Source: Myxococcales bacterium
GTDB taxonomy: Bacteria > Myxococcota_A > Polyangia > Polyangiales > Ga0077539
Length of the DNA stretch: 64,000 nucleotides
Direction: 5' to 3'
Assembly: GCA_016792845.1 (NCBI GenBank)
Contig: JAEUKH010000004.1
Coordinates: 62,001-126,000, forward strand
Position 1 is the first letter of the stretch. Every line of letters starts with the position of its first letter. The notes below the pieces were generated by a model, which was given only the letters and a program-made list of their open reading frames with translations, made no database searches and was not told where the DNA came from. This document shows, piece by piece, positions 2,563-6,530 of the stretch. The translations under genes and the position numbers were made by a program.

Positions 2563-3123
2563 TTAGAGCCGCCCGAGGATGGCTCGGAGGTGCGCCCGGG
2601 CGACGTCGCCGTCGAAGAGCTCGGCCAGGGCGCGGCTCAGGTGCTCGATGGCCACGAGGAGGGCGTCGCCCCGGGCCCCCACCCGCTCGGCCTGGGCCGC
2701 CGCACGCAAGAGCGCGATGGCCGACTCGACGTGATCGCGCGGCCCCGCGGGGCCGTGGTGATCGTCAGGCTCGAGCGCGTCGGTGAGGGTGCGAAGACCC
2801 CGCGGGAGCACCACCGAGGGGTTGTCAGCCCACGGCGGCACCGTCTGTAGCGCGGGCTTGAGGCCCAGCGAGAGCTGCCGCGGCCCCGCCCCGGGCGGCG
2901 GCGACGGCAGGCCCTTCAGCGGCAACACCCGCGCCGAACGCCCCTCGACCGCGGCGCCCCGCGCGGGCTGCAACGACTCAGGCGCCTCGGCCAGGGTCAC
3001 CCCCTCGCGCGAGAGCAGCGTCATGCGCACCGTCGGGCGACGGCGCGAGCGGCCGCGGCCCGCGGCGACCGTGAGAGTGGGGCCCGGTGTGCCCGGGGTA
3101 CCAGGGGGCTGCCCTTTTCGCAT
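2563..3123 (-). CDS. hypothetical protein, divergent from the XRE regulator
   Basis: I do not recognise this protein. The frame is open upstream to 3174, but a start at 3123 leaves the two palindromic sites at 3126-3171 between it and the divergent regulator, which is the more natural arrangement; no strong ribosome binding site helps decide. From 3123 the product has 186 residues: a basic Pro/Gly/Arg-rich N-terminus, a proline-rich middle, and a helical C-terminal third. Around residues 83-88 it carries QLSLGL, loosely like a beta-clamp-binding motif. It sits 70 bases upstream of the E1 alpha gene on the same strand but shares the operator region with the recombination locus, so it may belong to that unit. 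Confidence 0.55.
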   Translation of the reverse strand: MRKGQPPGTPGTPGPTLTVAAGRGRSRRRPTVRMTLLSREGVTLAEAPESLQPARGAAVEGRSARVLPLKGLPSPPPGAGPRQLSLGLKPALQTVPPWADNPSVVLPRGLRTLTDALEPDDHHGPAGPRDHVESAIALLRAAAQAERVGARGDALLVAIEHLSRALAELFDGDVARAHLRAILGRL

Positions 3124-3125
3124 GC

Positions 3126-3139
3126 AAGCAATACTGCTT
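3126..3139. promoter_or_regulatory. palindromic operator-like site 1
   Basis: AAGCA-ATAC-TGCTT forms an inverted repeat (five-base arms, four-base spacer). It lies just upstream of the minus-strand gene starting at 3123 and 68 bases upstream of the XRE gene. The sequence matches site 2 (AGCAAT-N-ATTGCT) with small deviations, and the centres of the two sites are about 33 bases apart, close to three helical turns. AT-rich sequence of this kind stands out in this GC-rich region. Likely binding site for the adjacent XRE protein (inference). Confidence 0.55.
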
Positions 3140-3158
3140 AAGTCGAAATTGGCAGTCA

Positions 3159-3171
3159 AGCAATGATTGCT
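3159..3171. promoter_or_regulatory. palindromic operator-like site 2
   Basis: A perfect inverted repeat AGCAAT-G-ATTGCT in the divergent intergenic region, 35 bases before the XRE start codon. Paired with the related site at 3126-3139; a third, shorter copy of the core (GCAATATTGC) is at 3975-3984. Autoregulation by the XRE protein is the simplest reading. Confidence 0.6.
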
Positions 3172-3206
3172 CAAAAAGTGCGCCCGGGTTAGCTTTGCGG
3201 GAGCCG

Positions 3207-3824
3207 ATGCCGAGACCCGTCGCCACCGAGGATGCAGCGCGCCGTCGGGCGCGTCTCGGGGCCTTGATCGAGGCCCTCGGGGCGGCGCGCGGCGCGAAGG
3301 TGACGCAGCGAGAGTTCGCGGCCTCGATCGGGCGCGAGCAGGGCACCATCGCGGCCATCCTCGGGGGGCACCGGGCGCTCGGGGGCGACGTGATGTTGGC
3401 GGTGGTGCAGGCCTACGGGCTGCCGGCTGACTATTTTGACAGCGCCCTCGCGCCGAACCCGCGGCCCTTCGCGCGGGCGGCGGTGGGGGCGGTTCCGGCG
3501 TTGCGGGGTGAGGCGACGGGGCCGGGGCCGCTGCGGGCGCCGCCGGTGTCGGTGGCTTACGGCTCGCGCGACCCTGGGCTCGCCGAGGTGATCGCGGCCC
3601 TCGCGCCCGATCGGGCCGTGGCCATGGCCCTCGAATCGCTCTCGCGCCGCGGCATGGCGCGCGACAGCGACGGGTGGAGCCTCCTGGCCATCGAGGCCCA
3701 GAGCGCCCACGACCGGGGCGCCCTCGGGGGGTGGTTCGCCGAGGCGCAGCGCCTCCCCCTCGCGCAGCCTGAGGTGAGCGCCCGCGGCCGGAGCTCTAAG
3801 ACGAAGCGCGTCGGCGCGGTCTGA
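3207..3824 (+). CDS. XRE-family HTH transcriptional regulator
   Basis: A 205-residue protein. Residues about 15-80 form a Cro/CI-type helix-turn-helix domain: VTQREFAASIG is helices 2-3, then EQGTIAAILGGHRALG, then a typical ending LAVVQAYGLPADYF. The remaining 120 residues are Ala/Arg-rich without a recognised fold. I start it at the ATG at 3207 rather than 40 codons upstream, because the upstream codons cover the palindromic operators and have non-coding composition. GGGAG precedes the ATG by only three bases. It leads the cluster that includes the RecT-like and exonuclease genes, so it is the probable repressor of this phage-like module. Confidence 0.82.
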   Translation: MPRPVATEDAARRRARLGALIEALGAARGAKVTQREFAASIGREQGTIAAILGGHRALGGDVMLAVVQAYGLPADYFDSALAPNPRPFARAAVGAVPALRGEATGPGPLRAPPVSVAYGSRDPGLAEVIAALAPDRAVAMALESLSRRGMARDSDGWSLLAIEAQSAHDRGALGGWFAEAQRLPLAQPEVSARGRSSKTKRVGAV

Positions 3825-3833
3825 CATCTGGTG

Positions 3834-3848
3834 TGACAGAGTATGTCA
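3834..3848. promoter_or_regulatory. palindrome TGACA-N5-TGTCA
   Basis: An inverted repeat with five-base arms and a five-base spacer lies just after the stop codon of the XRE gene; a further TGACAT at 3822-3827 can pair with the same right arm. It differs from the AGCAAT-type sites, so a second regulator may act on the downstream genes. Alternatively it is chance, since the arms are short. Confidence 0.35.
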
Positions 3849-3961
3849 ATCGTGCCCTTGCGAGGGTCGCGAGGGTGCGTACCTTCCGGGGCGTGAAGGA
3901 CGACCGACAAAACGGGGCGCGGTGGGTTCGGGGCGGCGCCGAGCTGCCGCGCAGGGCGCCG

Positions 3962-4357
3962 ATGGGCGACGCTGGCAATATTGCTTCAGCATTGTCATCG
4001 CCCGGCTACGACGAGCGCCCCGTCGAGAGCGCCCTCGAGCTCGACGAGCTCGTGCGGCTGCGGGCCGAGCTCTCGTGGGCTGATTGGAAGTCGCATCCGC
4101 GGTTCAAGAAAGACCGGGTGCTCGGCGAGGCGCAGCGCACGCTGGGCGCGGGTTGGGGCGCGCTGCGCTGGCCGGTGCTGCCCGGGGTCGTGGCGGAGCT
4201 CCGCCCGGCGAACGATGTGCCTGACGCGACCTCTCCGTTGCCGCCTTCGCTTGAGGCCGAGCTCATGGCCGACGAGGCGTACTTGCAGCGCTGCGACGCG
4301 GCCTTCGAGGCGTGGATCGACGCCCTCGACGCGCAGGGGCCCGACAACGACGAGTGA
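3962..4357 (+). CDS. small acidic hypothetical protein in recombination locus
   Basis: Function not recognised. From the ATG at 3962 it has 131 residues, is strongly acidic at both ends (the C-terminus ends DAQGPDNDE) and has a basic/aromatic centre (WADWKSHPRFKKDR). The frame is open further upstream to a GTG at 3833, but that start would put the operator palindrome inside the gene and the extra codons look unlike the rest. It lies between the regulator and the annealing protein, so a role in the same module is likely. The palindrome GCAATATTGC falls inside codons 5-8. Confidence 0.6.
   Translation: MGDAGNIASALSSPGYDERPVESALELDELVRLRAELSWADWKSHPRFKKDRVLGEAQRTLGAGWGALRWPVLPGVVAELRPANDVPDATSPLPPSLEAELMADEAYLQRCDAAFEAWIDALDAQGPDNDE
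3975..3984. promoter_or_regulatory. third AGCAAT-type palindrome core
   Basis: GCAATATTGC is a perfect ten-base palindrome that shares its arms (GCAAT/ATTGC) with the two sites upstream of the XRE gene. It is either inside the first codons of the 3962 gene or, if translation starts later, in its leader. It could be a secondary operator for the downstream genes. Confidence 0.4.
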
Positions 4358-4443
4358 TCGAGAGGCCGGGCTCGCGCATGGGGCGCGCGCGCCGGCGACC
4401 AGCATCGGTGCGGCCCGAGGGGCCCAACACACAGGGTAGAGCG

Positions 4444-5337
4444 ATGAACGAGAAGGCTGAAAAGACCGAGAAGAAGAGCGTGGGCGAGCGGGCCGAGTTT
4501 GGGGTCGACGCCCTGACCGGCGCGCGGGTGATCGAGTCGCTGGTGCTGCGGGGCGACGTGTCGGCGCTGAACGGCACCGACCGGGCGAAGTTCTACGTTC
4601 AGATGTGTGACGGCCTGGGGCTCAACCCGCACGCCCAGCCCTTCGCGTTTCTCAAGCTGAACGGCAAAGAGGTGCTCTACGCCACCCGCGGGGCCACCGA
4701 TCAGCTCGCGGCCATTCATAAGCTGAACCGCGAGATCATCGACGGGCCCAAGGTGATCGACCTCGCGGGCACCAAGCTCGTCTACGCGGTGTGTCGCGCG
4801 ACGCACCCCAACGGTCGGGTCGAGACCGCGACGGCCACGGTGCCCCTGGTCGACCCGGTGAACGTGCTCATGAAGGTCGAGACCAAGGCCAAGCGCCGGG
4901 CCACGCTGTCGATCCTCGGGTTGGGCGTGCTCGATGAGATGGAGCTTGAGACCATTCCGGCCAACGTTCAGGAGCCCGCGGGCGGTGTTGACCTGGCGTC
5001 GATCGCGAACCAGGCGCGGGCCCACGAGGCGCCGCCGGTGCCGGCCAACGATGAGGGCAGCCCGGCGCCGAGCGAGGCGCACCCCGCGCTCGAGAGCTTC
5101 TATGCGCGGCTCGGCGAGATCGAGCTGCCGGGCGAGGCCGTGGGGGTCTGGGTCAAGCACCGCGCTGACATCGCGACCCTCGACGCCGCCGTGCGCGAGG
5201 CCGCGTGGAAGGCGCTCTGTCTGCGCACCGAGGAGGTGGGCAAGATGAAGAACGCCAAGATCTGGCTCCGAAAGGCGATCGCGGAAGAAGACCAGCGGCG
5301 CGGTGCGAGCGCCACGGGTGATACCCAGGCCGCCTGA
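4444..5337 (+). CDS. RecT/Red-beta-like single-strand annealing protein
   Basis: A 297-residue protein whose first 175 residues resemble phage single-strand annealing recombinases. Visible features are the FYVQMCDGLGLNPHAQPF stretch (residues 50-67, comparable with the GLNP region of Red-beta), LYATRGATDQLAA (79-90), and KVETKAKRRATLSILGLGVLDE (144-165), the basic conserved segment of this group. Such proteins coat and anneal complementary single strands produced by a partner exonuclease. The C-terminal 100 residues are a proline-rich linker plus a helical domain. The exonuclease gene follows 47 bases downstream. Family membership is by motif; a more distant annealase family is possible. Confidence 0.68.
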   Translation: MNEKAEKTEKKSVGERAEFGVDALTGARVIESLVLRGDVSALNGTDRAKFYVQMCDGLGLNPHAQPFAFLKLNGKEVLYATRGATDQLAAIHKLNREIIDGPKVIDLAGTKLVYAVCRATHPNGRVETATATVPLVDPVNVLMKVETKAKRRATLSILGLGVLDEMELETIPANVQEPAGGVDLASIANQARAHEAPPVPANDEGSPAPSEAHPALESFYARLGEIELPGEAVGVWVKHRADIATLDAAVREAAWKALCLRTEEVGKMKNAKIWLRKAIAEEDQRRGASATGDTQAA

Positions 5338-5384
5338 ACGGGGCGGCGTGTAGTTTCACCGAGGTCGGAGGGGGGCAATGGGCT

Positions 5385-6530
5385 ATGCTCGGGTGTCGCT
5401 CGCGTCGCCCGCTCATGGACCCAGCCCCGAACCTCCTCGACGTTGCGCAGCTTGCCGAAATCGCGCAGGCGAGGGCCGAGTGCGCGCCGCGGCTGTACGC
5501 CCTCGTGTCGAGCGTGGGCTCGCAGCGGGCGGCGTGGGAGGTGCTGCACGAGGCGGGCCTCTTCCCCGACGCCGCGGGGAAGTTCTACGCCGCGGTGCGA
5601 AAGTACGGGCTCGAAGCGACCCTCGACGGGCTCTTCACCCTCGACCGTCTGGCGATCATCCGCGCGCTGATCGTTAACCCAGCGCCCTTCGCCATCCCGC
5701 GGGTGAGCGTCTCGACGCTGGCCAATCAGTTCTACTGCGAGATGCAGGTCCACCTCGCGCGCTCGCACGCGCTGCGCACCGAGAGCGCCGAGCTCGCCGC
5801 CGGGGCCGCGGGGCATGCGGCCTTCGAGGCCGAGGCCGAAGAGATTTCGCCCGAAGAGATCAACCGCGCCATCACCGCGGGCGAGCCCCTCGAGCTCGTC
5901 GAGATGCCGCTCTCGGCCGAAGTTCACGGGGTGCGGATCGTCGGCCGGGCCGACCGCATTCACCTCGAAGGCAAGCGCGCCACGCTGGTGCTGGAGTTTA
6001 AGTTCAGCGGCCGCCGAGAGCTCTTCCCCTCGCACATCGTGCAGGTCGAGGCCTACGGCCGGATGCTCGAAGCCAACGGCTTTAGCACCGACCGTCTCGT
6101 CTACGCGGTGGCGGTGCTCCCGCGGGGCCGCAAGGTCACCGACGGCCTCGCCGCGCAGATCGCAGAGCGTGCGTTTCGCGCCGCCCGCGACGGTCTCAGC
6201 ATGACCGACCCGCGGCCGCCGACGGGGGCCCCCGACCCCTTGGCCGGGCTCACCGCGCGCCGCATCGACGACGAGGCCTTCGGGCTCTGGGTCTTTCGTC
6301 ACCACCGGGCCCGGGTCGAGCGCGACCTCTCGTGGGCCCTCCACTACTGGTCAGGCCGCCGGGCCCCTGAGGGCACCGCGTCGCGCGGCAAATGCAGGGC
6401 GTGCCCCTTCAACGCCGCGACGCTCTGTGAGGCCGCGAAGGCTCCGCCCGATGGCCGCTATGCGGTGAAGCGCACCGAGGGGCGCTACGGGGTCTTGCAC
6501 GTCGTTCAGCCCGCCCGCCGCGGGCCCTGA
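5385..6530 (+). CDS. Cas4/RecB-type Fe-S exonuclease
   Basis: A 381-residue PD-(D/E)XK nuclease. Motifs in order: first cluster Cys118 (FYC), His144 (AAGHAAFE), Asp190 (GRAD), Glu204-x-Lys206 (LEFK), Gln220...Tyr224 (QVEAYG), then Cys337, Cys340 and Cys348 (KCRACPFNAATLC). The one-plus-three cysteine layout is that of the 4Fe-4S cluster in Cas4 and AddB. The first 100 residues are an extra helical domain. The start at 5385 is preceded by a strong GGAGGGGGG at nine bases. Next to a RecT-like gene it most likely supplies the 5'-3' resection activity of a two-component recombinase. No cas1, cas2 or repeats are nearby, so a CRISPR role is not supported. Confidence 0.82.
   Translation: MLGCRSRRPLMDPAPNLLDVAQLAEIAQARAECAPRLYALVSSVGSQRAAWEVLHEAGLFPDAAGKFYAAVRKYGLEATLDGLFTLDRLAIIRALIVNPAPFAIPRVSVSTLANQFYCEMQVHLARSHALRTESAELAAGAAGHAAFEAEAEEISPEEINRAITAGEPLELVEMPLSAEVHGVRIVGRADRIHLEGKRATLVLEFKFSGRRELFPSHIVQVEAYGRMLEANGFSTDRLVYAVAVLPRGRKVTDGLAAQIAERAFRAARDGLSMTDPRPPTGAPDPLAGLTARRIDDEAFGLWVFRHHRARVERDLSWALHYWSGRRAPEGTASRGKCRACPFNAATLCEAAKAPPDGRYAVKRTEGRYGVLHVVQPARRGP

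Follow-up and report, generated by a model that had tools for sequence, protein, structure and literature searches.

Recombination systems of the lambda Red (Exo and Red-beta) and RecE/RecT type place an exonuclease-type gene beside an annealase-type gene of the RAD52 superfamily. Such recombinases of Firmicutes have been sorted into seven families (PMC8093625), and a superfamily of five annealase families has been supported, together with thousands of unnamed structural candidates (PMC11783212). We describe here a chromosomal locus of related design in a stretch of 64,000 nucleotides from a Myxococcales bacterium (assembly GCA_016792845.1, contig JAEUKH010000004.1). This whole stretch, called the window below, corresponds to C4:62001-126000 in an assembly of 6.7 Mb and 56 contigs. 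The module spans window positions 3126-6530 and consists of operator-like sites and four open reading frames on the + strand, encoding an XRE regulator, a small acidic protein, an annealase-like protein (ANN) and a predicted Fe-S nuclease (NUC). Our preferred reading, which we consider rather more probable than the alternatives taken together, is that ANN and NUC form a two-component module for single-strand annealing, fixed in the chromosome and inherited mostly by vertical descent, in which a phage-type annealase is combined with an Exo5/Cas4-like Fe-S nuclease. Our analysis computed gene order, conservation, purifying selection, the predicted fold of ANN, the conservation of the NUC active site and cysteines, and the conservation of the operators. 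The four genes are the following (pI, isoelectric point).

3207..3824, + strand: XRE-type helix-turn-helix regulator, 205 amino acids, pI 10.7
3962..4357, + strand: small acidic protein, 131 amino acids, pI 4.3, with a conserved C-terminal motif
4444..5337, + strand: ANN, annealase-like protein, 297 amino acids, predicted RecT/RAD52 core at about residues 22-176 and C-terminal helical domain at about 214-292
5415..6530, + strand: NUC, predicted Fe-S PD-(D/E)XK nuclease, 371 amino acids, helical N-terminal domain at about residues 10-87 and Exo5/Cas4-like core at about 96-340

An earlier, sequence-only reading of this DNA had reported these four consecutive genes. All of them are present at those positions, with homologues in the same order in related genomes, and the G+C content at third codon positions is 0.87-0.92 in all four, as in real genes of this 71% GC genome.

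ANN had been called a RecT-like annealing protein, which its predicted fold bears out and its sequence family does not. The AlphaFold2 model of ANN has a mean per-residue confidence (pLDDT) of 86, with most of the core above 90. Its predicted elements are two strands (residues 67-72 and 75-80), a helix (82-91), three strands (95-107, 110-120 and 126-134) and a second helix (138-157), an order that matches the hairpin, helix, three strands and helix of the core common to LiRecT and RAD52 (PMC9772228) and places the model in the RAD52 fold. A Foldseek comparison of the model with the PDB put RAD52 chains at the top, with Mgm101 ranked only slightly lower (E 7e-4, probability 1.0). Among viral models the first hits were uncharacterised phage proteins, and proteins named Sak3, RecT, Erf and Rad52 came after them. 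By sequence, ANN matched no family in Pfam (E<=1), PHROGs, NCBIfam or PADLOC, the RecT (PF03837) and Rad52_Rad22 (PF04098) profiles included, and a search of PDB sequences with the ANN alignment gave nothing even at E<=10. Relatives of ANN were found at 74 loci in many phyla in a genome scan and at least 544 times in a scan of viral contigs; Paenibacillus, Bacteroidota, Chloroflexota and myxobacteria are among the taxa that have them. An alignment of 78 diverse relatives shows eight invariant positions (C55, L60, Y79, T147, K148, R151, R152 and G159). Weak Pfam matches occur to Rad52_Rad22 in 4/78 (best 1.7e-4), to RecT in 2/78 (best 5.4e-4) and to bet_lambda in a single relative at 0.006, and PHROGs yields no recombinase name for any of them. 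ANN looks like a member of a separate, unnamed sequence family of predicted RAD52-fold annealases that lies outside Pfam RecT. Because its viral relatives are so numerous and the phage-annotation libraries name almost none of the 78, a common phage annealase type is probably being missed, and the relatives of ANN may sit unnamed among the structural candidates of PMC11783212.

The phage contexts of ANN relatives resemble those of known recombination genes. In a Campylobacter phage a YqaJ/RecE-like exonuclease gene (3e-12, 7e-49) directly precedes the ANN relative, and in a prophage of genome G003 ANN is followed by a gene of 123 amino acids and then by a PDDEXK_1/phrog_69 exonuclease (1e-15, 9e-22). 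Neighbour families were clustered over 143 ANN loci and named by eye; the recurrent ones include YqaJ-like nucleases (18 loci), Cas4-like nucleases (8 loci), Gp157, SSB, DnaB, primase-type proteins and a resolvase-like protein. An ANN copy and an integrase occur together in prophage-like regions at C50:41001-61000 (L008) and on contig C38 of G003 (L040); in the latter the order is ANN, the 123-amino-acid gene, the PDDEXK nuclease, and then one SSB-like and one sliding-clamp-like gene.

The C-terminal helical domain of ANN also occurs in fusion proteins encoded in the genomes of relatives. It is joined to a Sak4-like ATPase (AAA_24 2.5e-27, phrog_124 1.6e-9; L041 7327-9354), with 56% identity over 110 amino acids, and to a Rad52-type protein (5.8e-16; L042 7406-9046), with 64% identity over 73 amino acids. 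The domain is thus swapped among three kinds of annealing-type protein, which strengthens the assignment of ANN as a candidate annealase and suggests an adaptor role for the domain. A PDDEXK_1 nuclease gene follows the Rad52-type fusion in L042.

NUC had been proposed to be an Fe-S nuclease of the Cas4/AddB kind. It passes the Pfam cut-offs of Exo5 (PF09810; 30.0 bits against 25) and PDDEXK_1 (24.7 against 22), the Exo5 score coming from two partial stretches of the protein and the cut-off not being reached when the search starts from DNA. The NCBIfam cas4 model (TIGR00372) gives 22.7 bits, far under its cut-off of 65, and PADLOC Cas4 models match at 7e-8. A profile of the NUC family finds human EXO5 at 1e-5, aligning the segment YW.G.R.P...C..C......C. 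Ten NUC sequences share the catalytic residues H134, D180, E194, K196, Q210 and Y214 and the cysteines C108, C327, C330 and C338, and these four cysteines would bind an Fe-S cluster. By its sequence NUC is nearest to Exo5 rather than Cas4, which refines the earlier proposal. We rejected a CRISPR-Cas4 reading since the cas4 cut-off was missed and no CRISPR genes were noticed nearby. The extra N-terminal domain of about 100 residues that had been pointed out corresponds to a confidently modelled helical domain of about 95 residues, specific to this family and without a family match. No relative of NUC was confirmed in viral contigs and none was found in sequenced phages, and for this reason its partnership with ANN appears to be host-made.

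Comparison across related Myxococcota shows the pair to be conserved in synteny throughout the family. NUC is present as a single copy in 12 of the 13 genomes of this family of uncultured myxobacteria, including all 10 of good quality, and in 0/279 other sampled genomes of the phylum (E<=1e-10). ANN is present in 11 of the 13 and in none of the genomes sampled from the rest of the order. The two genes are adjacent and syntenic in all five genera (g1-g5). Genera g1-g3 retain the order E1b, E1a, small gene, XRE, acidic gene, ANN, NUC; in g4 and g5 the acidic gene lies upstream of ANN and NUC, with carAB nearby in g4. Ratios of nonsynonymous to synonymous substitution (dN/dS) among close genomes, calculated by the Nei-Gojobori method and approximate given the GC-rich genome, were 0.02-0.04 in g3 and 0.12-0.26 in g4 for NUC, 0.07-0.18 for ANN and 0.11-0.17 for XRE, and 0.06-0.07 in g3 for the neighbouring E1-beta gene. 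ANN and NUC evolve under purifying selection. In a fragmented metagenome-assembled genome (L033, G005:C404, 497-1604) NUC is split over two frames, by a frameshift or an assembly error. The family-wide synteny supports the suggestion of the sequence-only reading that this is a domesticated recombination or repair unit; for the defence role that it had also named, nothing was found beyond the Cas4-like matches.

Several observations weigh against the preferred reading. In VIA-align, ribosomal protein S5 (Z 8.4, 82 aligned) scores level with RAD52 (Z 8.1, root-mean-square deviation 5.4, 107 aligned), so that the fold comparison is not conclusive by itself. The predicted likeness of ANN to RAD52 holds at the level of the fold, and profile-profile comparison gave no decision: hhalign was run with ANN against small RecT and Rad52 alignments, which left Rad52 and RecT unlinked to each other too, and reversed-sequence controls scored lower. 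The NUC model has a pLDDT of 49 outside the N-terminal helical domain, and given this poor model the assignment of the nuclease core draws on the sequence; the matches of the model to Cas4, EXO5 and RecB-type structures (Z 3-4) were discarded as evidence on the same ground. The same genome carries two neighbouring large PDDEXK_1 genes, likely AddAB, and encodes elsewhere a Pfam RecT protein (2e-27; L253, C15:131605-132126), also found in G001 and G002, so that overlap with other repair routes is possible. With a probable AddAB and a RecT gene present, and RecC (PF04257) not detected in 12 genomes of the family, the ANN-NUC module would add to other repair routes. Finally, in genome G002 ANN and the greater part of the acidic gene are gone, but XRE and NUC remain, the latter with a dN/dS of about 0.02. 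Its deletion site (L055 8404-9051) has kept the operators and holds scrambled remnants, including a short inverted one. This could mean that G002 maintains NUC in the absence of ANN, that the genes were lost recently, or that the assembly is wrong at this place. Since G002 lost ANN and kept NUC, the pairing is not obligatory.

A second explanation makes NUC the functional centre of the locus: a family-specific Exo5-like nuclease that serves single-stranded DNA or crosslink repair or clears mobile DNA. On this view ANN and the acidic protein would be dispensable accessories. NUC is found in one genome more of the family than ANN, shows very low ratios in g3 and persists in the genome that lacks ANN. 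However, ANN is itself retained under purifying selection directly upstream of NUC in five genera, and its phage relatives also lie near nucleases. We consider this explanation unlikely, though it deserves more weight than the two discussed further below.

Under the preferred reading of a single-strand-annealing module, we infer nuclease and annealing activity, physical pairing of the two proteins, repression by XRE and a role in repair. NUC would resect or trim DNA ends and so expose single strands. ANN would coat the exposed strand through a RAD52-type groove and pair it with the complementary strand, leading to RecA-independent repair, with its C-terminal helical domain serving as a partner-docking module. 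In three genera XRE would repress its own promoter, and possibly an acidic-ANN-NUC operon, through the AGCAAT-ATTGCT sites.

In a tree of the ANN core (27 rows, few forks well supported), chromosomal copies occupy two positions: the g4 and g5 copies group with the prophage copy of G003, and the g1-g3 copies with viral ones (L012, L132 and L134). Judged from these sequences, exchange between chromosomal and phage copies of ANN is likely. The module itself is most likely host-owned, of phage ancestry, chromosomally fixed and largely vertically inherited. More tentatively, we propose a history that may be slightly more apt to fail than to hold: ANN would belong to a family of RAD52-fold phage annealases that spans phyla and has gone unrecognised, and ancestors of this myxobacterial family would have captured lineages of it and joined them with a host Exo5-like Fe-S nuclease as a fixed annealing-repair system. 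The yeast mitochondrial proteins Mgm101 and Exo5 would offer a parallel to such a system. A third explanation is an anti-phage or counter-phage module, in which phage-type recombination proteins kept by the host disturb phage recombination or degrade incoming DNA. The control by XRE, the phage-type components, the PADLOC Cas4 matches of NUC and the intermixing of chromosomal ANN with phage and prophage copies in the tree would agree with it, but the locus is fixed and syntenic across five genera, whereas most defence genes are patchy, a complete PADLOC system is absent and no defence neighbours were noticed; we think it improbable. That the locus is an ancient prophage remnant in neutral decay is very improbable: ANN is a phage-type gene, prophages with ANN exist in the same family and in G002 a scrambled remnant marks the loss of the ANN and acidic genes, but the dN/dS of ANN, NUC and XRE is well under 1, synteny holds in every genus and NUC was not found in viral contigs.

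The XRE protein has a weak match to HTH_3 (Pfam E 0.005), a match to phage repressors in PHROGs (2e-4) and a weak one to RmrA (PADLOC). A homologue at the same position is 59-61% identical in g3 and 54% in g2, and none was found in g4 and g5; the module's own XRE regulator, as it had been described, therefore holds for this locus and for g1-g3, that is for three of the five genera, in which its operators occur as well. The acidic protein matched no family in Pfam, PHROGs, NCBIfam or PADLOC, and its C-terminal motif D..F...CD..RDAW is conserved in 5/5 genera. The operator-like palindromes that had been noticed are real and lie as follows (no strand assigned).

3126..3139: AAGCA-ATAC-TGCTT, an imperfect operator-like palindrome within the divergent promoter of XRE; g2 and g3 have a related site, AATATTGCGCAAG / TGTATTGCGCAAG, at the corresponding position
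3159..3171: AGCAAT-G-ATTGCT, a perfect operator-like palindrome some 45 bp before the start of XRE
3834..3848: TGACA-N5-TGTCA, a palindrome in the intergenic stretch that follows XRE and precedes the acidic gene
3975..3984: GCAATATTGC, a palindrome lying in the opening codons of the acidic gene; g1 and g3 conserve it, g2 does not

The site at 3159..3171 recurs at the equivalent place, about -45, in another genus, g3. Among single genomes, G010 and G002 have it there as a perfect palindrome and G008 with one mismatch; G001 carries a different palindrome, AGATTGCAGCAATCT. G008 and G002 conserve the site at 3834..3848 as GTGACA-N5-TGTCAC, 147 nucleotides past the aligned end of XRE. The pattern GCAAT(0-2)ATTGC occurs three times in the 6.7 Mb genome, two of these at the module (3159..3171 and 3975..3984); the third copy, at C4:221024, falls within the coding sequence of an unrelated radical-SAM gene, and we treated it as a chance occurrence. 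A Markov estimate from the window gives about 0.5-1.1 occurrences by chance and a control pattern gave 0; with this expectation the operator argument rests on cross-genus conservation and not on rarity. XRE would bind these palindromes.

The surroundings were judged by eye on the gene calls between C4:12 kb and 70 kb and those of the remaining window, flanking genes being named by reading their translations. To the left lie genes for E1 beta and alpha of the pyruvate-dehydrogenase type and a small, conserved gene in divergent orientation, and to the right a beta-propeller-type gene and carA-carB. The gene calls over this range showed no integrase, no terminase and no cluster of structural genes, as in the earlier reading. 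We rejected a prophage reading, including that of a complete prophage extending outside the view, as the neighbours over this range look cellular and the one phage-like gene is a lone MuF-like minor head protein gene (L006 2855-3988, C4:32855-33988), about 31 kb from the module. The small gene (2563-3174, - strand), whose C-terminal part is conserved in g1-g3, is divergent from XRE, shares the operator-bearing intergenic region with it and precedes the E1 genes; XRE might also affect the operon of this gene and the E1 genes. A solo second copy of ANN lies outside the window (C4:45719-46522, - strand; L006 15710-16546); it is 64% identical, has no adjoining nuclease gene and is surrounded by cellular genes. 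A weak ANN relative (30%) at C35:107556-107957 (L009), possibly degenerate, stands beside a gene resembling an M78-type peptidase.

The relatives of ANN are candidate recombineering tools for the taxa in which they occur, namely Paenibacillus, Bacteroidota, Chloroflexota and myxobacteria. The chromosomal module is a case, open to experimental test, in which a phage-type recombinase would have been recruited to a conserved cellular function, and G002 provides a natural annealase deletion. We found no description of the ANN-NUC pair in the literature, as covered by titles and abstracts, with most subscription papers outside reach.

Compared with lambda Red and RecE/RecT, the locus differs in three ways: the ANN family is not recognised by sequence as RecT or Red-beta, NUC is Fe-S Exo5/Cas4-like and not lambda-Exo/YqaJ or RecE, and the pair is a fixed chromosomal locus outside a prophage, with XRE in three genera. 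ANN shares its predicted core with the Rad52/Erf/Sak3 superfamily, whose RAD52, together with Mgm101, gave the best PDB matches in Foldseek, but it has no family assignment there and carries the C-terminal helical domain shared with the Sak4-like and Rad52-type fusions. NUC matches eukaryotic Exo5 (Exonuclease V) in the N-terminal cysteine region and in the YW.G.R.P...C..C......C region, and differs in being bacterial, in its two partial matching stretches and in its family-specific N-terminal helical domain. With Cas4 nucleases it shares the PD-(D/E)XK core and the four cysteines, but it is about twice as long, and no CRISPR genes were noticed nearby.

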